A stretch of 48,803 nt of DNA, taken from NCBI GenBank assembly GCA_011045955.1, contig DSBV01000087.1, positions 1 through 48,803 of the forward strand, written 5' to 3'. Below are positions 26,772-38,855 of the stretch, one piece after another. The DNA is from Bacteroidales bacterium. Its GTDB lineage: Bacteria > Bacteroidota > Bacteroidia > Bacteroidales > Tenuifilaceae. Position 1 is the stretch's first letter. Each line of letters starts with the position of its first letter. A model generated the notes under the pieces. That model searched no databases. It was not told the DNA's origin and saw nothing but the letters and a program-made list of their open reading frames with translations. The position numbers were made by a program, and so were the translations under genes.

Positions 26772-27407
26772 TTACCGGGAGTAGCCCTGTTTAACAAAGT
26801 AAGCCACCTTCTCCATGGAGGTAATCATATCGTACTCTTCCAGGTAAACATTCTCAGGAACAACTAAAGGAATAGTTGTGAAGTTAAGGATTCCCTTAAT
26901 ACCAGTAGCAACAAGTTGCTCTGCAACTTGATTAGCAGTATCGGGGGGCGAAGAAATTATGGCGATGGAAATATCGTTACGTTTTATTATATCGGGCATG
27001 TCCTTCATGTGGTAGCAGTTTACACCTGAAATCACCCGGTTAACCTTATTGGGGTCCACATCAAAAGCGGCAACAATATTAAGTTTAGGGCGCTTGCCAT
27101 TGAAATAGGTAGTGATGGCGCGTCCTAGATTACCCATACCAACAACAGCAACATTTAATCCTACTTGGTGGTCGATGATATCGCCAATAACCTTAATGAG
27201 TTCCTGGGCATCGTAGCCTTTCTTTTTCATGCTCGAGTAACCAATAAGCATTAAATCGCGCCTAACCTGAACTGCTGTTATGTTGTGTAAACCGGCAAGC
27301 TCATGCGAGTAGATGTGAGTTTTACCTTTTGCCAGGCAATTAAGCAATGTCCTACGGTACTCACTTAGCCGTTCAATGGTTTTCCCAGGTAGATATGCCT
27401 TATCCAT
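26772..27407 (-). CDS. rex: redox-sensing transcriptional repressor Rex
   Basis: The 211-residue dimeric repressor releases DNA when NADH/NAD+ rises. The N-terminal winged helix (about 1-80) contains the recognition segment QVRRDLMLIG (47-56). The C-terminal Rossmann domain has VVGMGNLGRA (88-97) and the acidic AAFDVDPNK that selects NAD(H) over NADP(H). A C-terminal domain-swapped helix (EKVAYFVKQGY) is present. Length is normal. It has a consensus promoter (27431-27461) overlapping a Rex-like palindrome, and its likely operator lies in the divergent hyd promoter region at 35350-35367. Targets therefore probably include hydCBA. Confidence 0.97.
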   Translation of the reverse strand: MDKAYLPGKTIERLSEYRRTLLNCLAKGKTHIYSHELAGLHNITAVQVRRDLMLIGYSSMKKKGYDAQELIKVIGDIIDHQVGLNVAVVGMGNLGRAITTYFNGKRPKLNIVAAFDVDPNKVNRVISGVNCYHMKDMPDIIKRNDISIAIISSPPDTANQVAEQLVATGIKGILNFTTIPLVVPENVYLEEYDMITSMEKVAYFVKQGYSR

Positions 27408-27484: not shown

Positions 27485-28633
27485 TTAAATGCCATCGTTT
27501 AGTGTATCGAAACCGGGTAAAGGGAATGTGATGGTAAAAGTTGAACCCACACCGGGTTCGCTGTGAACATCAATTCTAGCGCCATATAAATCTACCACTC
27601 GTTTAACAATCGAAAGTCCTAAACCGCTTCCGGTTACATTTTTGCTCTGCGGATTTTTGATTCGGGTAAACTCCTGGAAAAGTTTTGGTATATCTTCGGG
27701 CTCGATGCCAATTCCAGAATCGGATATTACAAGCGTAACCTCCGAGGCCGATCTACAGATACTACAATGAACCCACCCTCCAGGTATATTGTATTTGACA
27801 GCATTGGAAATGAGGTTGTTGAATAAAATCTCCATGTCGTCGGAATCGGCAAGCATGAAAACGGGATCGGAGGTTTGCAGGGTAAGGGTTACATCGCGTT
27901 GAATGGCAAGGGGTGTCATGGTTTCAATGGCCGAACGAGCCACAAGGGTTAAATCGATTTCACGAAGGTTTCGCTGTCGTTTGCCCAATTCGATATGTGT
28001 GAGGTCGAGTAGATCCATTATTAGGTTACGCATGGATTGGATTCGCGCTAGCGAACGGTCGATAAAATTCATGTAACTATCAATGCTATTGCCGGCCTGC
28101 TTTTCCTGCATCATCTTCAGGTAACCCTCAATTGCATTGAGTGGAGCCTTAAGCTCATGCGATAACACGGTGAGGAACTGAAATCGTACCTGCTTGCCCT
28201 CACGATGAAGCTTACGGGTCATGCGCCGCAGAAAATAATGCTTGGTAATATTTTCAATGGACGATTTAAGTTCCTGAGGGGTAAAGGGTTTGGGAACAAA
28301 ATTGTAGGCACCAATGTTAGTAGCCCTGACAGCAAGTTCCAGCGAGGCATAGGAGGTAATCATCATAACCAAGATATCGGGGTAGTTCTCGTTGATGAAC
28401 TGCAACACCTCAACTCCCTGAATACCAGGAAGCTTATTATCGAGCAAAACAATGGCCGGGCCAGAACGCTTGATGATATCGATAGCCTCCTCGCCTGTGG
28501 CTGCTTCAATCACATTAAAGCCTATATCGTCCTCAAGGAACGGATAGCTAACCACAAAATTCCGCAGAATACGAATTACACCGGAACGGATTCCAGGCTC
28601 ATCGTCAACAACTAATATATCCACAACTTCCAT
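27485..28633 (-). CDS. receiver-histidine kinase hybrid (REC-HisKA-HATPase)
   Basis: The 382-residue soluble protein has an N-terminal receiver domain (about 5-125; acidic pair D10-D11, phospho-acceptor D65 in LLDNKLPG, K115 in VPKPF). A histidine-kinase core follows, with H159 in TVLSHELKAPLNAIEG, N-box NNLISNAVKYN, and G boxes DSGIGIEPED and GSGLGLSIVKRVV. With no membrane segment and no input domain apart from the receiver, it should take phosphate from the upstream sensor kinase/receiver pair and relay it, or be switched by it. Its start overlaps the preceding receiver gene's stop by one base, so coupled synthesis is expected. No DNA-binding output domain is present. Confidence 0.9.
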   Translation of the reverse strand: MEVVDILVVDDEPGIRSGVIRILRNFVVSYPFLEDDIGFNVIEAATGEEAIDIIKRSGPAIVLLDNKLPGIQGVEVLQFINENYPDILVMMITSYASLELAVRATNIGAYNFVPKPFTPQELKSSIENITKHYFLRRMTRKLHREGKQVRFQFLTVLSHELKAPLNAIEGYLKMMQEKQAGNSIDSYMNFIDRSLARIQSMRNLIMDLLDLTHIELGKRQRNLREIDLTLVARSAIETMTPLAIQRDVTLTLQTSDPVFMLADSDDMEILFNNLISNAVKYNIPGGWVHCSICRSASEVTLVISDSGIGIEPEDIPKLFQEFTRIKNPQSKNVTGSGLGLSIVKRVVDLYGARIDVHSEPGVGSTFTITFPLPGFDTLNDGI

Positions 28634-29028
28634 TATACCTTAAGCAATTTCAATATTTCACGATGCATCTGATCGGGGCGAATTCCTTTTTCGAGGTATA
28701 AATCGGCTTTAATCCACTGGCGTTCCTGTTCGCTTGAAATACCAAACGACATGCCAGTCTCAGCCGATACGGCAGTGGCTATTATAACGGGGGTATCGGG
28801 ATACATTCGTTTTAGCTTGTAGCTAAGTATGAAACCGCTATCCTCGTTTTCCATCATAAGATCGAGTATGGCTAAATCGGGCTTAATATTCTTTAAAATG
28901 TTCTCCGCTTCACGCTGGCTTTGGGCAGTTACTACATCAAAACCCATTTTTTCAACATGAAACTTGAGCTGAAACAGGTAGTCGGGATCGTCATCAACTA
29001 TCAGAATAGTTTTTCGTGCACTAGCCAT
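28633..29028 (-). CDS. stand-alone receiver-domain protein
   Basis: The 131-residue CheY-like protein has acidic residues D12-D14, phospho-acceptor D56 in AILDLMME, and conserved Lys in YLEKGIRP (about 113). There is an insert-like stretch (SFGISSEQERQWIKADLY) between alpha-4 and beta-5 that is longer than in CheY. It has no output domain, so it acts by protein contact or as phosphorelay intermediate. It sits 17 nt after the hydrogenase-like sensor kinase and overlaps the REC-HK hybrid, which makes the most likely order sensor kinase to this protein to hybrid. Confidence 0.88.
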   Translation of the reverse strand: MASARKTILIVDDDPDYLFQLKFHVEKMGFDVVTAQSQREAENILKNIKPDLAILDLMMENEDSGFILSYKLKRMYPDTPVIIATAVSAETGMSFGISSEQERQWIKADLYLEKGIRPDQMHREILKLLKV

Positions 29029-29045
29029 GACTGTCGTATTATTAG

Positions 29046-31058
29046 TTAATCATTATCATTGTTGCCAAAATCATTATCGGCATAACGGGGCAGGGTTATC
29101 CTAAAGGTTGTACCGGTAGGTCCTTTTTGGGGATCAGTATTGGATTCCACATCAATTTTACCTTTGTGCATTTTAACAATACCGTAGGTAGTGGCTAGTC
29201 CTAATCCGGTTCCCTTGCCAATTCCCTTAGTGGTGAAAAATGGGGTGAAGAGCTTATCCATATTCTCCTCGGGGATCCCATCGCCAGTATCGATTACACT
29301 AATCGAAATCTGACTATCATCGCCGTCGATGACAACTGTAAGATCACCGCCATTGGGCATGGCTTCAATTGCGTTTTTATTCAGGTTGGTAAGCACCTGC
29401 ATCATCTGCTCGTAATCGAGACTAGCCATCAGGTTTGATGCTCTGCAAATCACATTGGAGGTAATATTCTTTGGGATAACAATCCCGGCAATGCTATCCT
29501 CTGCCAATTTCTTTACATTAACCTTTTCCACCTTGACCTGATTCTTGCGGGCAAAATTTAGCAAACCGCTAACAATTTTCTTGCACCGCTCCGCCTGCGA
29601 CAATATCAACTCCAAATCCTTACGCAGGGGATCGTCGGGTTTACACTCATCGAGCAGTATGTTGCTGTACATCAAAACAACACCCAAAGGGTTGTTTAGC
29701 TCGTGGGCAATACCGGCCGATAGCTGCCCCATATGGGCAAGTTTCTCGGAATGCTTGAGAGCCTGTTGCATTTTTGCCAATTTCTCATTTGAAATGGCGA
29801 GGTCGTTGATGGATTCATGCAGTTCCTCAATGGCATATGGCAAACACATTTCCACCTCGGCAAGTCCCTCAACAATAGCAATGGCATGTTCGGTACAAGT
29901 ATCGTAACCACATGCACCACAGTTCAGATGGTCGCGAGGGGTAAACTTGCCCATCTTAGCCAATACCTTGTTGATTTGGTCGTCGGTTGGTTTTGAAATA
30001 CGTTTATCGTCGGAGGAAAACCTATGCGTGAGGTCAAGGTCTTTAAATTTTGATATGGCTAGCTCCCACTCTTTAAGCTGATCGGGAGTTACCTTGTTAC
30101 GGGCATAGGAGCTGATGTACGTTTTGCGCTCAAAACGTTTGCCTCCGGGTGACATGCCAGGCCCCATGATGCAACCCTCGCAGCAAAGTAGCTCTAGGTT
30201 TTGCCCCTTCAGGTTACCGGATTCCCATTCCTTTATGGCTTCCTGAAAGCCTATTCGACCTTCGGCTACAGTGATGTTGCCCTCAATTAGGTCATCAAAT
30301 ATGTTAACGGTTTGCATTAACCCCCTACTAACCGGGAATATCGCCCCGCGGCCAGCATGGGGTGGGTCAAAATCAAATGGTTCAACGCTATCGGGCGTTA
30401 TACTGGCCTGTTCAAAAAGAACCCGCAACTCCCGAAAGGTTATTGCCTCGTCAATATCAACGGATTCATCCTTTTTGGCTATGCAAGGGCCAATAAAAAC
30501 CTGTTTAAGGCTACTGTCAATTTGCCTTACCACCCTGCTTATGGCCACCATAGGCGACACTAGGGGTGCTAAATTCTCTACCAAATCGGGATGGTAGTAA
30601 CGAATGTAAGTAACAATAGCAGGACAATCGCTCGAGATATAACCCTTACTCGATCCATCCTCCAGTAACGATTTGTAACGGCTGGCCACCAAATCGGCTC
30701 CAAAAGCTACCTCAAAAACGTGGCTAAATCCCAACGCTCTGAGCATTCCAACGAAACGACGGTAATCGTCAATCTCAGCAAACTCTGCGGGGAAACTGGG
30801 AGCTACCAGTGCAGCAACCTTTTCGTTGCTTTGAAGTATACTCTTTACCTCGTTTCGGGTAAGCAGAAACACCTTAGCATCCTGGCTGCAAACCTTAACG
30901 CAATTGCCACATCCTATGCACCTTTCAGGGATGACCTCAGCCTGACCATTGACAATTTTAATTGCCTTAGCTGGGCATTCTCTAACACAGGTGTAGCAAA
31001 CCCTACAAAGTTCCTTTATGGTATAAACCAATTTTCTTTTTTCCCGATTTGTTACCAT
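29046..31058 (-). CDS. hydrogenase-like iron-sulfur sensor histidine kinase
   Basis: The 670-residue cytoplasmic protein contains, in order: a 2x[4Fe-4S] ferredoxin domain (C18-C64 region, CX2CX2CX3C twice); an [FeFe]-hydrogenase large-subunit-like domain (about 80-320); an Fe-S domain with C380, C383, C388 and C405; a coiled coil (about 410-440); and a histidine kinase (H452 in [14 protein letters not shown]-box [10 protein letters not shown] boxes DTGDGIPEE and [11 protein letters not shown]). Of the H-cluster motifs, L1 is SSDCPA (D144 replaces the proton-transfer Cys, C145 kept), L2 is GPCIAKK (C192) and L3 is CCEGC (C293, C296), so the [4Fe-4S] ligands are conserved. Sensory group-C-type hydrogenases are known to have such changes. 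It follows hydA by 17 nt and presumably senses H2, CO or redox state. Confidence 0.9.
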
Positions 31059-31075: not shown

Positions 31076-32800
31076 TTAAAGTAAAACCTCCCTTTTTGAA
31101 TATCGGGTGTAAAGAAACTTTTTCGATTTTTCGCCGCCAGTTTCTCCTAAAAAATCATCGTAAATGGCTTTAACCAAGGGGTTACGGGCAGCACACTTAA
31201 TGCCTTCAGCCTCATCAATTTCAATAATTGCTTTGGTACGCAACTTAACATACTTATCCTCGTGAACATAGGGTTGGCCACCGCCATTTACGCAACCACC
31301 GGGGCAAGCCATTACCTCAATGTAGTCCAGTTTAACATCGCCTTCCATCAAAACCGGGAGAATTGAATGTATGTTTTTTAACCCATTAACAACTGCAAAG
31401 GTGAATGTTTGGCCAGCGGCATTGAAAGAGAATGCCTTTACTCCAGATATTATTTTCACCTCGGTTATTTTGCTGTCGTTAAGTTCTTTTGATGTGAGTT
31501 TATGGTAAACCACCCGGGCCAGTGCCTCGGCTGAACCTCCTGATATTCCAAATAGTTTTCCGGACGAACTACGGATATTAAATGGTTTATCGGGATGTTG
31601 CGGTTCAATTCCCTGGATATCGATGCCGTAAAGTTTAATCAGTCGAACCAGTTCGCGTGTCGATAAAACCGTATCCACGTCGGAAAGGCCGCGGGTAGTC
31701 ATCTCCTCCCTTTGAGCTTCAAACTTTTTGGCCAAACAGGGCATTACAGAAACAGAGAATATTTTTGACAAATTAATCTCATTTTCTGCAGCAAAGTAGT
31801 TCCTAATTAGCGATCCCATTACCTGCTGAGGCGATTTAACGGCACTCAGTGCCGGGATATAATCCGGATACCACTGTTCAACAAACTTAACCCATGCGGG
31901 GCAACACGATGAAAACATAGGTAGATTGTTGCCATTTCCCTTTCGGGCAATCAGCTCAGCAGCCATTTCAACTGCAGCGATATCGGCAGCAACGGCCGTG
32001 TCAAATACATACTTAAACCCGATTTTCCGTAATGCATTGTATAGCAATTTGTTAACATCCTTACTGGCTTTAAGCCCAAACTCAGTAGCTACTGAAACCG
32101 AAATTGAAGGGGCAATTTGAACGACAGGGATTAAATCGGGGTTGCTAAGTGCATCCATAACCTCGGCAAAATTTTGGCGTTCATGTAAGGCGCCAGTGGG
32201 GCAAACCAGCACACACTGACCGCAACCTATACAGCTGGAGAAGTTCAAGTCGCGCGACATGGTGGTTCCCACATACATGTTGCAGCCCCTATTAACAAAC
32301 TCAAAGGTTGATACCGATTGAACCTCATCGCAAACTCTAATACATCTGCCACAAAGAATACACTTAGCAGGGTCGCGAACAATACTTGGGCTGGAAAGGT
32401 CAAGCTTTTGGGTGAAAGACTTACGTAAAACCTTACGTTCACGAATATGCAGTTCTGCTGCCAAATCCTGTAGCTCACAAAAACCGTTTCGCTCACAGTA
32501 TAAGCAGTCGTCGGGATGGTTGGCAAGAAGTAACTCAACCAGGGTTTTGCGGGCGCGCACCACCCGGGGCGAATGGGTCATAACACGCATACCATTCTCC
32601 ACTATGTGTGAGCACGAAGTCACTAGTGTATCGCGGCCCTCAACCTCAACAACACATAATCTACACGCCCCCGATGGAGTTAAATTGGTCATATTGCAAA
32701 GTGTAGGTACTCTGATACCGTTACGGTTTAAGGCCTCAAGAATAGTATCGCCTTTATGAGCCTGAATTGTTCTATTATTCACTTCTATTGTAATGTTCAT
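31076..32800 (-). CDS. hydA: [FeFe]-hydrogenase catalytic subunit HydA
   Basis: The 574-residue enzyme has an N-terminal [2Fe-2S] domain (C35, C46, C49 and C63), a His-Cys3 [4Fe-4S] site (H95, C99, C102, C108), a 2x[4Fe-4S] ferredoxin domain (C147-C157 and C190-C200) and the H-cluster domain. All H-cluster motifs are intact: L1 SSCCPAW (C299 proton relay, C300), L2 MPCLAKK (C355) and L3 EVMACPGGCVNGGGQP (C499, C503). Length and numbering coincide with Clostridium pasteurianum CpI. With HydB and HydC it forms the NAD-linked trimeric type (group A3-like), which can couple H2 to NADH and ferredoxin. HydG nearby supplies cofactor. Confidence 0.97.
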   Translation of the reverse strand: MNITIEVNNRTIQAHKGDTILEALNRNGIRVPTLCNMTNLTPSGACRLCVVEVEGRDTLVTSCSHIVENGMRVMTHSPRVVRARKTLVELLLANHPDDCLYCERNGFCELQDLAAELHIRERKVLRKSFTQKLDLSSPSIVRDPAKCILCGRCIRVCDEVQSVSTFEFVNRGCNMYVGTTMSRDLNFSSCIGCGQCVLVCPTGALHERQNFAEVMDALSNPDLIPVVQIAPSISVSVATEFGLKASKDVNKLLYNALRKIGFKYVFDTAVAADIAAVEMAAELIARKGNGNNLPMFSSCCPAWVKFVEQWYPDYIPALSAVKSPQQVMGSLIRNYFAAENEINLSKIFSVSVMPCLAKKFEAQREEMTTRGLSDVDTVLSTRELVRLIKLYGIDIQGIEPQHPDKPFNIRSSSGKLFGISGGSAEALARVVYHKLTSKELNDSKITEVKIISGVKAFSFNAAGQTFTFAVVNGLKNIHSILPVLMEGDVKLDYIEVMACPGGCVNGGGQPYVHEDKYVKLRTKAIIEIDEAEGIKCAARNPLVKAIYDDFLGETGGEKSKKFLYTRYSKREVLL

Positions 32801-32812
32801 AGCAGCATAACT

Positions 32813-34762
32813 TTACTTGAAGAAAACAGCACCAAACTTGCATGTATCCTGGCATATACCGCATCCAATACAACGCTCCTCCACAATAAAGTAGGAGGAA
32901 CGAGGCGTTCCGTATATGGCCTGTGTTGGGCACTTCTTGGCGCAGGCTGTGCAACCCTTGCAACGCTCAATATCGATATAAAATGTTCTTAAATCGCGAC
33001 AAACACTAGCCCTGCACTTACGGTCAAAGATATGCTCCTCAAACTCATCGCGAAACGATTTTAAGGCCTTCAGGATTGGCTTGGGTGCTGTTTGACCTAA
33101 CCCACATAGCGATGTGTCGCGCATAACCTCAGCCAGGGTTTCGAGCTGAATAACCCCCTTAAACCGTTCCAGGGTATTATGCCCTTCGTTACTAACCGGT
33201 CGTTTCGATATGTTATCGAGTATTTGGTACATCCGGTTCGAACCCTCACGGCAAGGAATACATTTACCGCAGCTCTCATTGCGTATAAAATGCATGAAGT
33301 ATTTTACCAGGTCAACCATACAAACAGTATTGTCGAGAACCTGAACACCACCCGAGCCAAGGCTTATTCCTCGCCTTGGAAGTTCATCAAAGTCAATGGG
33401 AGCATCTAGTTCATCGGCAGTAACGCTCACCCCCGAAGGACCTCCCAGGTGCAATGCTTTAAAAGTTCTTCCATCCTTTACCCCGCCAGCTAGGTCGAGC
33501 AAAGTTGCAAGTGGCTCACCAAAGGTTAACTCTACCCAGCAGGTTTGAGATGCGTGACCATTAATGGAGAATATTTTCGTTCCCTTCGACCCCTCGGTTC
33601 CAAAAGCGGCAAACCATTGAGGCCCATTACTGATAATTTCAGGTATATTGGCTAGGGTCTCAACATTATTAATAACGGTGGGCTTGCCATTTAGTCCAAA
33701 TTCAGCAGGGTAAGGCGGTTTAATGGTAGGCATCCCACGTTTACCCTCAAGGCTTTTAATCAAAGCAGTTTCCTCGCCGCAAACGTAAGCGCCAGGGCCC
33801 TTATGCACCTCAACATCGAGAGAATAGCCACTTCCTAGTATATCATAGCCAAGCAGCCCTACCTCATAGGCCTGTTCAATAGCATTCTGAATGCGTTGAA
33901 TGGAAACCTTATACCTATCGCGAATATAAATTAAGGCCTTACTTGCCGACACGGCATAGGAGCTTAGAATAATTCCTTCAACAACCTTATGCGGATCGCT
34001 TTCTATAAGCAAACGATCCATGAATCCACCAGGATCACTCTCATCGGCATTACAAATCAGGTAGCGATCGCTGGTGGCAACCTGTAACGCTTTACGCCAC
34101 TTGGCGCCGGTGTGAAAAGCTCCACCACCCCTACCTCGTAATCCACTCTCCTCTACTATACGGCAAATATCGTCGAAAGTGTATTCCCTGATGGCTTTAG
34201 CCAAAGCACTGTATCCGCCATAAGCAATATACTCGGCTATGCTATCGGGGCATAAAATGCCAGCATTCTTTAGCAGTAAACGGTTTTGTCGTTTAAAAAA
34301 AGGGAGTTCGTTTTTAAACGGGATTCCGTGCCATGGCTCATGAATTTCGGAATGGTACTGGAAAATGGCATACTCAGGCTGAATAAAACCATTAAGTACT
34401 CCATCGAGTATGGAGTTAACCCTGTCAGGAGTTACATTGGTAAAAGCCACTCTTGTCTTGCCGGGTATCTGCACCTCAACAATTGGTTCCAGGGAGCATA
34501 GACCATGGCTACCAACACAAATTACATCGGCATCAACAGCATAATCATCCAAATACTGTTCAATTGCCATTTTGGTTTTAAGTGCACCAGCAACTATAGA
34601 CGATGTAGTAACGCCAACATATATCACTGGCTGCCTAACCCGTTCGTGCCTTAATGCGCTAAATTTATCACTTACCTCGGTAGGCCAAACCCCATAGTGA
34701 AGATTTGGAACAACAGCATCTTTTATAAAAGCTAATTCCGCTTTGGAATCGCACCGAGCCAT
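32813..34762 (-). CDS. hydB: NADH-binding flavoprotein subunit HydB (NuoF-like)
   Basis: The 649-residue subunit carries FMN, NAD(H) and Fe-S clusters. The NuoF core has the NADH/FMN motif GLRGRGGGAF (207-216) and NADESDPGGF (238-247), then the [4Fe-4S] site ESCGKCIPCREG (near 490). A C-terminal 2x[4Fe-4S] ferredoxin domain (about 595-645) completes it. The N-terminal thioredoxin-like domain (about 45-100) normally binds a [2Fe-2S] cluster, but three of its four cysteine positions are replaced (G50, S55 and S85, with only C89 kept). It starts 2 nt after the hydC stop and ends 12 nt before hydA. Confidence 0.95.
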   Translation of the reverse strand: MARCDSKAELAFIKDAVVPNLHYGVWPTEVSDKFSALRHERVRQPVIYVGVTTSSIVAGALKTKMAIEQYLDDYAVDADVICVGSHGLCSLEPIVEVQIPGKTRVAFTNVTPDRVNSILDGVLNGFIQPEYAIFQYHSEIHEPWHGIPFKNELPFFKRQNRLLLKNAGILCPDSIAEYIAYGGYSALAKAIREYTFDDICRIVEESGLRGRGGGAFHTGAKWRKALQVATSDRYLICNADESDPGGFMDRLLIESDPHKVVEGIILSSYAVSASKALIYIRDRYKVSIQRIQNAIEQAYEVGLLGYDILGSGYSLDVEVHKGPGAYVCGEETALIKSLEGKRGMPTIKPPYPAEFGLNGKPTVINNVETLANIPEIISNGPQWFAAFGTEGSKGTKIFSINGHASQTCWVELTFGEPLATLLDLAGGVKDGRTFKALHLGGPSGVSVTADELDAPIDFDELPRRGISLGSGGVQVLDNTVCMVDLVKYFMHFIRNESCGKCIPCREGSNRMYQILDNISKRPVSNEGHNTLERFKGVIQLETLAEVMRDTSLCGLGQTAPKPILKALKSFRDEFEEHIFDRKCRASVCRDLRTFYIDIERCKGCTACAKKCPTQAIYGTPRSSYFIVEERCIGCGICQDTCKFGAVFFK

Positions 34763-34764
34763 GT

Positions 34765-35229
34765 TTACTCTTGTGTTAAATCGTTTATAATGTGTTTAAG
34801 CTTTTCAGGATCAACTTCCCGGTAATACTCCTCGTTAATGGAAATTACCGGGCCGTGGTCGCATGCGCCCATACAGGTTACCACCTCAAGGCTAAACTGG
34901 CCATTCCGGGTTGTTTGGCCATTTTTCAACTTCAAATTTTCCTCTAAGTAAACCATATTCCACTTGGCCCCCTTAAGCCTACACGAAGTGCCATTACATA
35001 GACAGATATGATTTTTCCCTTTAGGTTCAAACTTAAACTGGTTATAGAATGTGGCTAAGCCATAAATTTTAGAAGTAGGCAAGTTTAACCTTTGCCCTAC
35101 CAGAACAATTGCTTCCTCGTTCAGACTACCCAACTCGCTTTGAATATCCTGAAGAATTGGTATAAGGCTCTTGGAATCTAGGTAGCTGTAACGTTCCAGA
35201 ATTTCCTCAATTTTCTCAGCTTTCGACAT
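34765..35229 (-). CDS. hydC: NuoE-like subunit HydC
   Basis: The 154-residue thioredoxin-fold subunit holds a [2Fe-2S] cluster with C78, C83, C119 and C123 (CNGTSC and CMGACDHGP). The helical N-terminus (about 1-60) is standard. It delivers electrons between HydB and the HydA chain in the trimer. I start it at the ATG at 35229 (MSKAEKIEEILERY), the usual length. An in-frame ATG at 35298 would add 23 hydrophobic residues not found in the family, although transcription from the inferred promoter would include it. It is the first gene of the leftward operon. Confidence 0.94.
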   Translation of the reverse strand: MSKAEKIEEILERYSYLDSKSLIPILQDIQSELGSLNEEAIVLVGQRLNLPTSKIYGLATFYNQFKFEPKGKNHICLCNGTSCRLKGAKWNMVYLEENLKLKNGQTTRNGQFSLEVVTCMGACDHGPVISINEEYYREVDPEKLKHIINDLTQE

Positions 35230-35338
35230 ACCTAAAGTAAAATAGAAATTAAATCCATTTGCCAAGGAAACCACTAATTCAACCCATCTGTTAAACAACT
35301 ACCAACCACATATCTGACTAGCTTTCAACTTGTTGAAG

Positions 35339-35368
35339 CAAATAAAAACTTGTTAATCAGGTAACAAT
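35339..35368 (-). promoter_or_regulatory. hydCBA promoter
   Basis: On the minus strand ATTG (35368-35365), an 18-nt spacer and TTTATTTG (35346-35339), seven of eight bases to TAnnTTTG. Transcription is expected near 35333, leaving about 100 nt of leader before hydC. A Rex operator fills the spacer. Confidence 0.55.
35350..35367. promoter_or_regulatory. Rex operator in the divergent hydrogenase intergenic region
   Basis: TTGTTAATCAGGTAACAA fits the Rex consensus TTGTTAAnnnnTTAACAA with a single mismatch (G for T at position 12). It lies between the -33 and -7 elements of the leftward hydC promoter, where bound repressor would block polymerase. It is 130 nt upstream of the rightward promoter, too far to block it directly. 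The rex gene is in the same island. Confidence 0.7.
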
Positions 35369-35476
35369 TTAATAAAACATTGTAAAAATTGTTCGCTTAC
35401 TCTCAATATTTTATCTATTTAAAACGATTACAGATAAGTGTTTTGATTTAAAAAAATGATTAAATTTCAGACTTAA

Positions 35477-35505
35477 ATTGCAAACCAAAACCTATCTTAG
35501 CTTTG
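35477..35505 (+). promoter_or_regulatory. promoter of the ferredoxin/sensor/phosphatase operon
   Basis: ATTG (35477-35480), 17 nt, TAGCTTTG (35498-35505, exact TAnnTTTG). The ATG of the ferredoxin gene is 30 nt downstream. Confidence 0.6.
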
Positions 35506-35535
35506 TAAATATAGTGTTATACCGATAACATTTAG

Positions 35536-35781
35536 ATGAATAAACGAGCCGAACTAATTATATGCTTGGGGAGCTCCTGCTTTGCAAGGGGTAATAAGGC
35601 CACACTCAAGGCAATAATGAAATTTTTGGACGATCACGATTTGAAGGAAAAGGTAAACTTTCATGGGGGGCATTGTTTTGGTAACTGCGCCGAGGGTCCT
35701 AACATCTCAATAAACGGTAAGCTTTTTACCGAAGTTGATGAAAATGGAATTATTGGCATTCTGACAAATGAGTTACTTTAG
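35536..35781 (+). CDS. thioredoxin-like [2Fe-2S] ferredoxin
   Basis: The 81-residue protein is equivalent to the C-terminal half of NuoE/HydC. Cysteines C10, C15, C47 and C51 (CLGSSC and CFGNC) provide the [2Fe-2S] site and the C-terminal beta-hairpin NISINGKLFTEV follows. There is no other domain. It is the first gene of the rightward operon, 8 nt before the sensor gene, so it is likely an electron donor or acceptor for that sensor. It is distinct from HydC in the neighbouring operon, which has the helical N-terminus. Confidence 0.9.
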   Translation: MNKRAELIICLGSSCFARGNKATLKAIMKFLDDHDLKEKVNFHGGHCFGNCAEGPNISINGKLFTEVDENGIIGILTNELL

Positions 35782-35789
35782 GGAGTCAT

Positions 35790-37661
35790 ATGTCGCAACT
35801 GTTTAGAATAGACGAGCAAACATGTATTAACTGCTACGCATGCGTAAGGGTTTGTCCTGTAAAAGCCATTGAGGTAAAAGCAGGGCAAAACTACGCACGA
35901 ATAATTGATAGCCGTTGTGTAGGATGTGGAAGCTGTTTAAATATCTGCCCGGTTAATGCAGTAAACTACAGATCCTCAAAAAAAGAAGTTTTGGAACTGC
36001 TTAAGGGTAACGAACCCGTTGCAGCTATCTGCTCCCCAAGCATTTCGGGTGAATTTGCCGATATTACCGATTACCGGAAATTTGTGCAGATGATAAAGCA
36101 ACTTGGTTTTACCTACGTATGCGAGGTAACCTTTGGAGTTGATCTGGTTGCGCGGGAATACAAGAAACTTTTTGAAAATTTTAAAGGCAAGTACTTTATT
36201 ACCAGCATGTGTCCGGTGGTGGTATCGATGGTTGAGAAATACCACCCCGAAATTGCTCAAAACCTTGCCCCTATTATATCACCAGTCGTGGCAACCGCCA
36301 TGGCCGTTAGAAAGGAATACGGATCCAACGTAAAGGTTGTCCTCATAGGCCCTTGCATTCAAAGCAAGGAAGAAATCAAACTTTATGATGACGACCGGAG
36401 AATTGATGAGAACCTAACGTTTGTTGAGCTAAGGGAACTTTTTGAGGAGATCAACATCAAGGAAAGCAACCTGGAATACTCCGAATTTGACGAACCCATT
36501 GGATACAAAGGATCGCTATTCCCTATAGGGCGTGGAATACTCCAAGCTGTTGATATAAGCGAGGATCTGCTTACCGGAACGGTAATCAGCACCAATGGCC
36601 CTAATAACACCCTTCAGGCGCTTGAGCAGTTCGAAACCAGTATCGATTTAATAAACCGACACTTCAACCTGTTTTACTGTGAGGGTTGCCTCATGGGGCC
36701 AGGAACCTCACGCGGCGGGAAAAAGTTTATTAGGCGAACCATGGTGGTTAATTATGCCAAAAAGCGACTAAAAACCTTTGATCGCAAAAAATGGGAAGAA
36801 GATATTGCTAAAAACAGCCTTGGAGATTTCTCAAGAAGTTTCACCATTGATGACCAACGCCTCCCCACACCCAACGAGCATAAGCTTGAAGAGGTTTTAA
36901 AGGTGATTGACAAAGAGTTTGTTGGGCGCGATTCGGGGTGCGAGGCATGCGGCTACTCATCGTGTTACGATTTTGCATCAGCCGTAGCATCGGGCCTTGC
37001 CCATACTGACATGTGCTTGAACTTTACTCTTAAAAAGCGACAGGAATACATAAAAACCCTACAGGCCACCAACGAAAAGTTCGCTAAAACTCAGGAAGCC
37101 CTCAGGGAATCAGAAAAGAAAGCCAGAACCGAGCAAGAGGCAGCCCGGGAAGCTACTGAAACCATTACCGCCATGCTTAAAAAACTGCCTTCGGCAGTAG
37201 TGCTTATCGACAAAAAAATGAAAATACTCCAGAGCAACCAAAGCTTTATTGATTTATTGGGCGACGATGCTTTGGAAATTAACGATATAATCCCCGGGCT
37301 GATTGGCGCCGACCTTAAGACCCTGCTCCCCTACAATATCCACAACCTTTTTACCAGCGTGCTCCACAATAACACCGATATTCTAAACCGCGATGTGATG
37401 TATAAGGATAAGCTACTAAATCTTTCAGTATTCACCATTAAACCCAATAGCATTGTGGGGGCTGTTATCCGCGACATGTATGCACCCGAAGTTCAAAAGG
37501 AGGAGGTTATTAAACGAATAACCGAAGTTGTTGATAAAAACCTGGCCATGGTTCAAAACATTGGATTTTTGCTGGGCGAAGGGGCATCGGAAACCGAAAA
37601 GATGCTCAACTCAATAATTAAAACCTACCGCGAGGGAAAAAATATCGACGATAAAGCATAG
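35790..37661 (+). CDS. hydrogenase-like iron-sulfur sensor with PAS-like domain
   Basis: The 623-residue cytoplasmic protein has the same Fe-S front end as the sensor kinase: 2x[4Fe-4S] ferredoxin (C12-C53 region), hydrogenase large-subunit-like domain (about 75-325), and an Fe-S domain (C384, C387, C392, C409). A coiled coil (about 415-460) and a PAS-like domain (about 463-565, LPSAVVLIDKKMKILQSN) follow, then a short helical tail. There is no kinase. L1 is TSMCPV (M140 replaces the proton-transfer Cys, C141 kept), L2 GPCIQSK (C189), L3 YCEGC (C297, C300). So an H-cluster-like or [4Fe-4S]-only site is possible, with impaired H2 turnover. It ends 12 nt before the phosphatase gene. Confidence 0.9.
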   Translation: MSQLFRIDEQTCINCYACVRVCPVKAIEVKAGQNYARIIDSRCVGCGSCLNICPVNAVNYRSSKKEVLELLKGNEPVAAICSPSISGEFADITDYRKFVQMIKQLGFTYVCEVTFGVDLVAREYKKLFENFKGKYFITSMCPVVVSMVEKYHPEIAQNLAPIISPVVATAMAVRKEYGSNVKVVLIGPCIQSKEEIKLYDDDRRIDENLTFVELRELFEEINIKESNLEYSEFDEPIGYKGSLFPIGRGILQAVDISEDLLTGTVISTNGPNNTLQALEQFETSIDLINRHFNLFYCEGCLMGPGTSRGGKKFIRRTMVVNYAKKRLKTFDRKKWEEDIAKNSLGDFSRSFTIDDQRLPTPNEHKLEEVLKVIDKEFVGRDSGCEACGYSSCYDFASAVASGLAHTDMCLNFTLKKRQEYIKTLQATNEKFAKTQEALRESEKKARTEQEAAREATETITAMLKKLPSAVVLIDKKMKILQSNQSFIDLLGDDALEINDIIPGLIGADLKTLLPYNIHNLFTSVLHNNTDILNRDVMYKDKLLNLSVFTIKPNSIVGAVIRDMYAPEVQKEEVIKRITEVVDKNLAMVQNIGFLLGEGASETEKMLNSIIKTYREGKNIDDKA

Positions 37662-37673
37662 CAGCTAAAAACC

Positions 37674-38855
37674 ATGTCGAGTAAGTTTTTCATAGAGGTA
37701 AACTGCCAGCAAAAGAATCATGACGAGGAACGTATTTGTGGCGACGTTTTCTACTCGCGTAGATTACAGGACGAAGAGCGCACTATTATTGTCCTGTCTG
37801 ATGGCATGGGGCATGGTGTAAAGGCAAATATTCTGGCCACCCTCACCTCAACCATGGCGCTTAACTTCACCATTGAGCACAAGGAGGTTAACACCATTGC
37901 CGAAATCATCATGAATACACTGCCAGTTTGCTCGGTTCGAAAAATGAGTTACTCAACCTTTTCCATAGTTGATATTGACCACAACGGCGAAACCCGCATA
38001 CTGGAATACGACAACCCACAATGCCTGATCATGCGCGGGACCGATGAGCTTGAACCCGAGTGGCAATGCATAATCCTTAACAGCGAAAAAAACGCAGGAA
38101 AGGAATTAAAGTTCTGTTCGTTTGTTCCGCAAAAGGAAGACCGAATAATACTTTGGACGGATGGAGTGACACAGTCCGGGCTGGGCTCAGCCGATTACCC
38201 TTTCGGCTGGGGCGACGAGGCTCGCGAATTTGTGAAACGAATAGTTAAAAATGAACCCGATATTTCGGCCCGAAAACTAAGCACCAAGGTGGTAAATATG
38301 GCTAGCCTCAACGATGGGTATCATCCAAAGGATGACACCTCGTGCGTAACAATATACTTCCGTAACCCTAGAAAACTCCTTATTTGCACCGGCCCACCCT
38401 ACGAAAAGGAGAACGACACAAAGCTTGCCAAGATATTTGAAGCCTTTGATGGGAAAAAGGCAATTTGCGGCGCAACCACTGTTGACATTATTGCCCGGGA
38501 ATTAAAACGAAGTGTTGAGGATAGCCTGGAATTTACTGATCCCGATTTACCTCCAATCAGCCAGATGGAGGGTGCCGATTTGGTTACCGAAGGAATTCTT
38601 ACCCTGAGCAAGGTTAACACTATTCTTGAAACATACAATGAGAATACTAATCTTAGCAAAGGCCCTGCCGATGAACTGGTAAAACTGATTCTGGAAAGCG
38701 ATAGCATTGAATTTGTGATTGGCACCTGCATAAACGTTGCACACCAAGACCCAAACTTGCCTGTTGAACTGGAAATCCGTAGGACTGTGGTAAAACGAAT
38801 TGCCAACATATTACAAGATAAATTTTTAAAGGAAGTAAAACTTCAGTTCCTTTAG
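37674..38855 (+). CDS. SpoIIE/PP2C-type serine phosphatase with unknown C-terminal domain
   Basis: The 393-residue soluble protein has an N-terminal PPM phosphatase domain (about 1-230) with metal-binding aspartates D24 and D43 (VLSDGMGHG), WTDGVTQSG (about 159-167) and HPKDDTSC (about 218-225). The C-terminal 165 residues start KLLICTGPPYEKENDTKLA, are alpha/beta and match no domain I recognise. Unlike RsbU-type proteins it carries no sensor module, so the hydrogenase-like PAS protein encoded 12 nt upstream is its likely regulator. Its phosphoprotein target is not in the window. The association of SpoIIE/PP2C phosphatases with sensory [FeFe]-hydrogenases is known from other anaerobes. Confidence 0.88.
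   Translation: MSSKFFIEVNCQQKNHDEERICGDVFYSRRLQDEERTIIVLSDGMGHGVKANILATLTSTMALNFTIEHKEVNTIAEIIMNTLPVCSVRKMSYSTFSIVDIDHNGETRILEYDNPQCLIMRGTDELEPEWQCIILNSEKNAGKELKFCSFVPQKEDRIILWTDGVTQSGLGSADYPFGWGDEAREFVKRIVKNEPDISARKLSTKVVNMASLNDGYHPKDDTSCVTIYFRNPRKLLICTGPPYEKENDTKLAKIFEAFDGKKAICGATTVDIIARELKRSVEDSLEFTDPDLPPISQMEGADLVTEGILTLSKVNTILETYNENTNLSKGPADELVKLILESDSIEFVIGTCINVAHQDPNLPVELEIRRTVVKRIANILQDKFLKEVKLQFL

Follow-up and report, generated by a model that had tools for sequence, protein, structure and literature searches.

A probable exchangeable hydrogenase-like input to a SpoIIE-type phosphatase: a conserved ferredoxin, sensor and phosphatase operon in the Bacteroidales

The window analyzed here is a stretch of 48,803 nucleotides (contig DSBV01000087.1, C15 in our numbering) from a Bacteroidales bacterium with a genome of 2.77 Mb in 129 contigs. 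It carries an operon for a [2Fe-2S] ferredoxin (FDX), a kinase-less [FeFe]-hydrogenase-like PAS sensor (SENS) and a SpoIIE/PP2C phosphatase (PHOS), divergent from the hydrogenase genes hydCBA. The operon probably encodes a modular signaling unit in which a Ser/Thr phosphatase is under the control of an exchangeable input, redox or H2; we infer the binding of sensor to phosphatase, the substrate and the signal from sequence and gene context. The proposal that such a sensor may act through a Ser/Thr phosphatase has already been published and is not new. HydDB lists a group "C3 phosphatase-linked (putative)", which "may sense H2 and regulate processes via serine/threonine phosphatases", a role given as putative (PMC5037454), and sensor–phosphatase pairs have been described for Ruminococcus albus (PMC6776011) and, as hfsB-hfsC, for Thermoanaerobacterium (PMC11837493). 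The onward signal route of group C [FeFe] sensors was called unknown in a 2024 review (PMC11376134).

Conserved gene order and exchange of the input domain

The three genes are intact forward-strand open reading frames (ORFs) separated by exactly 8 and 12 nucleotides, as the first-pass annotation of the window had it, and hydC, hydB, hydA and a gene for a sensor fused to a histidine kinase (HK sensor) are present on the opposite strand. For the conservation of this order, a contig pattern search returned at least 587 matches, at least 574 of them PHOS relatives, and the best 80 were kept; by title, 77 of these come from Bacteroidota or a plain "bacterium", two from Verrucomicrobia and one from Nitrospirae. 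At the 71 loci with at least 2.5 kb upstream, the arrangement was FDX-SENS-PHOS in 63, SENS-PHOS without FDX in one, PHOS-SENS in one and PHOS alone in six; the other nine, with less room, gave three FDX-SENS-PHOS, three SENS-PHOS, two PHOS alone and one PHOS-SENS. Of 148 genomes drawn evenly from the order, 59 had a PHOS match at E 1e-3 or better. Counting the 65 matches above 90 bits and leaving out six below 31 bits, SENS (or a listed part of it) lay directly upstream on the same strand of 61; in seven of these pairs only the hydrogenase domain (H-domain) part of SENS was listed, hence an apparent gap of about 500 nucleotides. Taken from the side of the sensor (100 long SENS, the type found in the window, from 100 genomes), PHOS was directly downstream at 92 of the 99 loci with room and FDX upstream at 74 of 98. 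FDX is therefore best described as usual in the operon, not universal. Because it is conserved within the order, the three-gene arrangement is more than chance, and the synteny check suggested in the first-pass annotation, for which absence of co-occurrence would have told against a sensor-switched phosphatase, left that reading standing.

Some of these loci have features of their own. The loci with PHOS alone (L090, L093, L099, L100, L101 and L104, and with less upstream room L089 and L098) belong to certain Bacteroidales genomes, several of which have titles naming gut samples; in four of the eight (L098, L099, L101 and L104), a guanylate-kinase-like frame is found no more than 2.6 kb upstream. 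In Marinifilum (L080, L081, L085 and L091), a short SENS-PHOS pair stands directly upstream of an FDX-long SENS-PHOS operon, so that two phosphatase-linked sensors of different H-domain type occur in tandem. At L106, L110, L111, L112, L114 and L115, a short SENS-PHOS operon is followed by an [FeFe] protein of 473–489 amino acids with group-A-like H-cluster motifs. In G122, an open frame measuring 1026 amino acids had hinted at a SENS-PHOS fusion; this was rejected, as the frame resolved into a separate 619-amino acid SENS ORF followed by a 395-amino acid PHOS ORF.

The strongest sign of how sensor and phosphatase are coupled comes from three genomes of one family (G090, G677 and G588), in which PHOS is preceded by a 308-amino acid protein made up of a PAS domain and the C-terminal module of SENS. 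These proteins (loci L140, L147 and L148) have no hydrogenase domain and no adjacent FDX, and their PAS domains were matched in Pfam with best E values of 1.5e-18, 5.4e-16 and 1.6e-16; hydrogenase-related genes lie close by on the opposite strand at all three loci. Within the order, 131 of 393 genomes carried the module; in a draw of 392 genomes across the phylum, the only one to carry it was the window's own. Because the module stays before PHOS through the swap, SENS residues 446–623 are probably the phosphatase-facing part, with the hydrogenase-like part as the exchangeable input, both being read from gene context.

PHOS has a PP2C fold and conserved metal-site aspartates, as expected of the SpoIIE/PP2C family. 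Foldseek aligned it to the SpoIIE phosphatase domain 5mqh (E 8e-13), and D24, D43, D163, D220 and D221 were invariant in all 11 aligned relatives, down to 34% identity; the assignment of metal binding among these residues is our presumption. The first-pass annotation had described a phosphatase with no sensor domain of its own, which is too strong, as the protein carries an extra conserved C-terminal domain of unassigned role. This domain (residues 233–393, 161 residues) shows conserved GPP, TEG and AHQD stretches in a 33-row alignment and was modeled with a mean pLDDT of 91.4. Pfam gave no family for the window copy and single weak matches for other copies, and Foldseek returned nothing at E 1e-3 or better. 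The best VIA match was with one chain of the FhcABCD complex (Z 9.5, 113 residues, 2.8 Å), followed by formylmethanofuran dehydrogenase and complex I chains (Z 7.7 to 8.1); these matches were too weak to name a family, and assignment as a phosphoheptose isomerase was likewise set aside (profile match at E 0.017). The domain may be where the SENS signal arrives or where the substrate binds.

The hydrogenase-like site of the sensor

Pfam analysis of window SENS identified Fe_hyd_lg_C, a ferredoxin part with two clusters and a C-terminal Fe-S motif, whereas the match to PAS was weak (PAS_8, E 0.0078, below the cut-off). No kinase or ATPase domain was matched, in agreement with the earlier description of a sensor without a kinase. 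The architecture is that of HydDB group C3, namely an H-domain followed by PAS (here the weak match), no kinase, and a gene beside a PP2C phosphatase. Also as described earlier, the proton-transfer position is occupied by Met: in the alignment, M140 falls on the position of the first group A motif Cys, immediately before ligand C141, and corresponds to C299 of CpI (numbering from PMC8163306 and PMC10055695). Window SENS thus lacks the proton-transfer Cys of prototypical catalytic [FeFe]-hydrogenases, a residue reported in just 17% of sensory members (PMC10055695). The claim that the cluster ligands are kept holds for the four cysteines themselves (C141, C189, C297 and C300) and not for their spacing, the last two forming C-x2-C, in contrast to the C-x3-C of window HydA and of the short sensors. 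Because these four cysteines remain, both H2 and redox sensing are possible for the window protein.

In the wider set of long sensors the site is less constant. Among 152 distinct long SENS (162 rows before copies were merged), all four H-cluster cysteines were kept in 109. C297 alone was replaced in 28 (15 Asn, 7 Asp and 6 His), and two to four ligands were gone in 15, in patterns that vary between groups; in all, residue 297 was other than Cys in 43. The remaining Fe-S cysteines were far more stable, Cys 12, 18, 22, 43, 46, 49 and 53 of the ferredoxin part and Cys 384, 387, 392 and 409 of the four-cysteine motif each being kept in 151–152 of the 152, and the 15 ligand-less sensors retain them with one exception, a Ser at residue 15. 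At that residue (35832–35834), where the first ferredoxin cluster has its second Cys, 106 of the 152 long sensors have Cys and 43 have Ser, and because of these substitutions the first cluster may be altered in many of them. The C299-equivalent was Asn in 100, Cys in 8 and Met in 5. In comparison, the four H-cluster cysteines were kept in 13/13 short phosphatase-linked sensors and in 28/28 HK sensors. Of the 28 HK sensors (window 29046–31058 and 27 others), 27 carry Asp where the proton-transfer Cys would stand, and Asp is the one C299 replacement reported not to cripple prototypical enzymes (PMC10055695).

The ligand losses in the 15 sensors require three changes by parsimony, of which well-supported branches force only one. 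As all 15 stay open frames of about 600 amino acids, each in a different genome, the ligand-less sensors look maintained. One pair of them gave a nonsynonymous divergence (dN) of 0.11 at a saturated synonymous divergence (dS) of 2.7, and two other pairs gave dN values of 0.20 and 0.38, with dS not computable. FDX was upstream of 15/15 ligand-less sensors versus 107/134 others, a difference that was not significant (p 0.074). The ligand cysteines have been described as conserved in sensory enzymes (PMC10055695), and H-cluster motifs were hardly found in group C1 proteins of Hydrogenedentota (PMC11406978); given the latter report, loss of the motifs is not wholly unprecedented.

The H-domain of the long sensors may have a different history from that of the short ones. 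In a tree of 73 H-domains, long and kinase sensors formed one group (support 98), apart from the short phosphatase-linked sensors (100), and a smaller tree again grouped long with kinase sensors (97). Mean H-domain identity was 0.40 between long and HK sensors and 0.27 between long and short, and mean identity of the C-terminal module was 0.40 between long and short. Trees and identities favor the long SENS as a chimera, with a kinase-type H-domain joined to the PAS module of the short sensors; this origin is possible and not proven, since a clade of long and short sensors was not rejected in the smaller tree (approximately unbiased test, p 0.195). The kinship of long SENS and HK sensors in the H-domain tree fits the classing of both types as C3 in PMC11406978.

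Proposed signaling and the alternatives

In the signaling path that we propose, the iron-sulfur and hydrogenase-like part of SENS would read electrons or H2, with FDX as its likely electron donor or acceptor. The signal would then reach the C-terminal PAS-plus-helix module by way of the four-cysteine Fe-S motif, and this module would bind PHOS and switch it in trans, in a direction that may be on or off. PHOS would then dephosphorylate Ser/Thr of a partner that helps to set hydrogenase or fermentation gene expression. Where the H-cluster site has been lost, the model comes down to redox sensing through the clusters that remain. For the earlier claim that sensor and phosphatase form a functional pair, the frequency of PHOS behind SENS and the retention of the C-terminal module beside PHOS through the swap lend support. 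The role of FDX as electron partner is favored by its four cysteines, the ligands of a thioredoxin-like [2Fe-2S] cluster, which are invariant in 67/67 aligned copies, and is weakened by the operons that lack it. A second output beside the HK sensor, also proposed at first, is supported by the locus; H2 as the signal in general is not, given the 15 long sensors that have lost at least two ligands and the 28 that have lost one.

Several observations weigh against the proposed path. PHOS was without SENS or FDX at 6 of the 71 roomy loci among the best 80 relatives, so it can work by itself or with a different partner; 4 of the 65 PHOS in the even draw had no adjacent SENS, 7 of 99 long SENS were not directly followed by PHOS, and 24 of 98 had no FDX upstream. 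No SENS-PHOS fusion was seen among the surveyed loci. PHOS without SENS, and SENS without PHOS directly downstream, are what would be expected if the two were merely co-regulated, each in a pathway of its own that responds to a common redox state. Gaps that are short or overlapping across the order, and a C-terminal module and PHOS that stay paired through the exchange of the input, make this explanation improbable. A more serious contender, which we nevertheless rate below even, is that SENS is a true H2 sensor throughout, with H2 on its H-cluster alone setting PHOS and FDX as a redox accessory. This is the published C3 idea (PMC5037454, PMC11837493, PMC6776011), and it draws on the adjoining hydCBA genes and on the four H-cluster cysteines of window SENS, of 109/152 long sensors and of 13/13 short ones. 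It is difficult to reconcile with the loss of at least two ligands in 15/152 long sensors and of C297 alone in 28, other clusters being retained, with the replacement of the hydrogenase part in three genomes, and with a proton-transfer position that is Asn in 100/152 and Met in 5/152.

A further proposal, compatible with an exchangeable input acting on PHOS, is partner switching as in RsbU/RsbW/RsbV, in which an RsbW-type protein would phosphorylate Ser/Thr of a partner (STAS or other) and PHOS would reverse it. Two proteins of the genome scored above the HATPase_c_2 cut-off; one of them, a 141-amino acid RsbW-like protein, is encoded at G000:C8:1374-1799, directly before a 455-amino acid [FeFe] protein. 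An RsbW-like relative was found in 41/55 PHOS genomes versus 10/93 others in the 148-genome draw (two weak matches, E 2e-8 and 9e-7, being dropped), and in 41/54 versus 9/41 of the 95 hydA-positive genomes (Fisher p 1.6e-7, uncorrected for ancestry). This co-occurrence suggests a kinase–phosphatase pair. An RsbW-like gene is also divergent from the PAS-PHOS operon in L140, and the genome has three STAS proteins. In a partner switch of this type, an RsbW-type kinase and a STAS antagonist would be expected to be encoded with the phosphatase; the operon here has neither, and the RsbW-like and three STAS proteins are on other contigs. The RsbW-like protein was missing from 13/54 hydA-positive PHOS genomes, may simply travel with its own hydrogenase cluster, and is a putative kinase, all of which leaves partner switching somewhat unlikely. 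A fuller version of the model, with interchangeable inputs on a dedicated PAS module, would have the H-cluster lost in one to three lineages and redox read via the ferredoxin-type clusters and the partner ferredoxin; PHOS would oppose the RsbW-like kinase and set H2 metabolism, and the histidine-kinase branch, with Asp at the proton position and ligands intact, would remain the true H2 sensor. Taken as a whole, this version is speculative and on balance doubtful.

The second hydrogenase cluster (L136:1023-9462, on G000:C8) comprises the RsbW-like ATPase, the 455-amino acid [FeFe] protein with its C-terminal Fe-S motif, another HATPase, a 2Fe-2S ferredoxin-like gene, hydB, hydA and a nuoE-like gene. 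It also holds two genes that we take to be like the DRTGG-type gene of L140 and a presumed PHP-like fragment, these names being assigned by likeness.

The locus and related systems

The features of the locus are collected in Table 1. The start of hydC is likely the ATG at 35229. The first-pass annotation had placed the three genes behind one promoter, which is presumptive; in a scan limited to the sigma-70 type, the sole match in 35299–35560 was on the reverse strand.

Table 1. Features of the operon and its neighbors in the window
Feature	Position	Strand	Basis
FDX, thioredoxin-like [2Fe-2S] ferredoxin, 81 amino acids, Cys 10, 15, 47, 51	35536..35781	+	PF01257 (2Fe-2S_thioredx), 32.7 bits, cut-off 24.8
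SENS, [FeFe]-hydrogenase-like sensor without kinase, 623 amino acids	35790..37661	+	PF02906, E 3.2e-39; also ferredoxin and FeS domains; HisKA/HATPase absent
SENS residues 12-53, two [4Fe-4S] ferredoxin-type clusters	35823..35948	+	Cys conservation in long sensors
SENS residues 76-304, H-domain, M140 and Cys 141, 189, 297, 300	36015..36701	+	Pfam, alignment
SENS residues 384-409, Fe-S motif of four Cys, separating H-domain from PAS module	36939..37016	+	PF04060
SENS residues 446-623, C-terminal PAS-plus-helix module	37125..37658	+	Genome distribution; retention before PHOS without hydrogenase domain
PHOS, SpoIIE-type PP2C phosphatase, 393 amino acids	37674..38855	+	PF07228, 44.9 bits
PHOS residues 33-228, PP2C catalytic domain	37770..38357	+	Pfam
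PHOS residues 233-393, conserved C-terminal domain without Pfam family	38370..38852	+	33-row alignment, structure model
Palindrome TTGTTA-N6-TAACAA, probable Rex operator, divergent region	35350..35367	.	Perfect match
hydC (NuoE-like)	34765..35229	-	PF01257 across nearly whole profile; listed ORF extends to 35298
hydB (NuoF-like)	32813..34762	-	Pfam
hydA, group A [FeFe]-hydrogenase	31076..32800	-	PF02906, E 1e-82; TIGR02512, 434.4 bits, cut-off 405.95
HK sensor (kinase branch), HisKA and HATPase_c joined to an H-domain with Asp as C299-equivalent	29046..31058	-	Pfam, alignment
Response regulator, receiver domain only	28633..29028	-	Pfam
Receiver plus histidine kinase	27485..28633	-	Pfam
Rex redox repressor	26772..27407	-	NF003995, 200.9 bits, cut-off 126

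The palindrome in the divergent region matches the putative Rex motif of Thermoanaerobacterium saccharolyticum, where the hfsABCD operon has a predicted Rex site (PMC5886521). Among the best PHOS relatives, a Rex-like site within two mismatches was present in 39/39 divergent hydC/FDX regions and in 3/27 FDX operons without divergent hydC. Because it tracks divergent hydC and is rare otherwise, the putative operator most likely serves the hydCBA side, and Rex control of the sensor operon itself was rejected. At 87 further loci, such a site occurred upstream of SENS (within 640 nucleotides) in 53, versus none inside SENS.

With HydDB group C3 the window shares a hydrogenase-like sensor encoded with a Ser/Thr phosphatase (PMC5037454); it differs in the C-x2-C spacing, in its own small ferredoxin and in having relatives without the H-cluster site, and its provisional placement in C3 is by architecture. 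The C3 proteins of Hydrogenedentota (BfuT, PMC11406978) comprise a PAS type and a histidine kinase type beside group A3 bifurcating hydrogenases, both classed as C3. That paper doubts H2 sensing for group C1, not for the PAS type, and the word "phosphatase" appears nowhere in its main text. HfsB-HfsC of Thermoanaerobacterium and HydS of R. albus, likened to the window pair by their published descriptions, are likewise a PAS hydrogenase-like sensor and a serine phosphatase encoded with a hydrogenase; in the window, a small ferredoxin gene comes ahead of the pair, and the operon is divergent from hydCBA. In T. saccharolyticum, strains deleted for hfsA or hfsB sent flux to ethanol and those deleted for hfsC or hfsD sent it to lactate, a pattern that the authors of that work took as regulation (PMC5707799). 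HydS of Thermotoga maritima is also PAS-linked and has its proton-transfer Cys replaced, by Ala where the window has Met; the H-cluster cysteines presented as conserved in that paper are not always kept in the long Bacteroidales sensors (PMC10055695). RsbP of the sigma-B pathway offers a parallel in which a PAS-type input controls a PPM/PP2C phosphatase (PMC3183031), although in the window the PAS module and the phosphatase are two different proteins, and PHOS carries an additional domain at its C terminus. In the open-access listings and passages surveyed, we met no account of ligand loss in the PAS type, of the input swap or of the second PHOS domain.

For sensors of this kind, H2 need not be the sensed signal, as some relatives have lost the H-cluster site or carry an ordinary PAS domain instead. 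The ligand-less sensors are natural controls that could separate H2 sensing from redox sensing, and the input swap points to the module of 160–180 residues as the part to test for phosphatase binding. With two related sensors at one locus, one linked to a kinase and the other to a phosphatase, a division of labor between them is testable.

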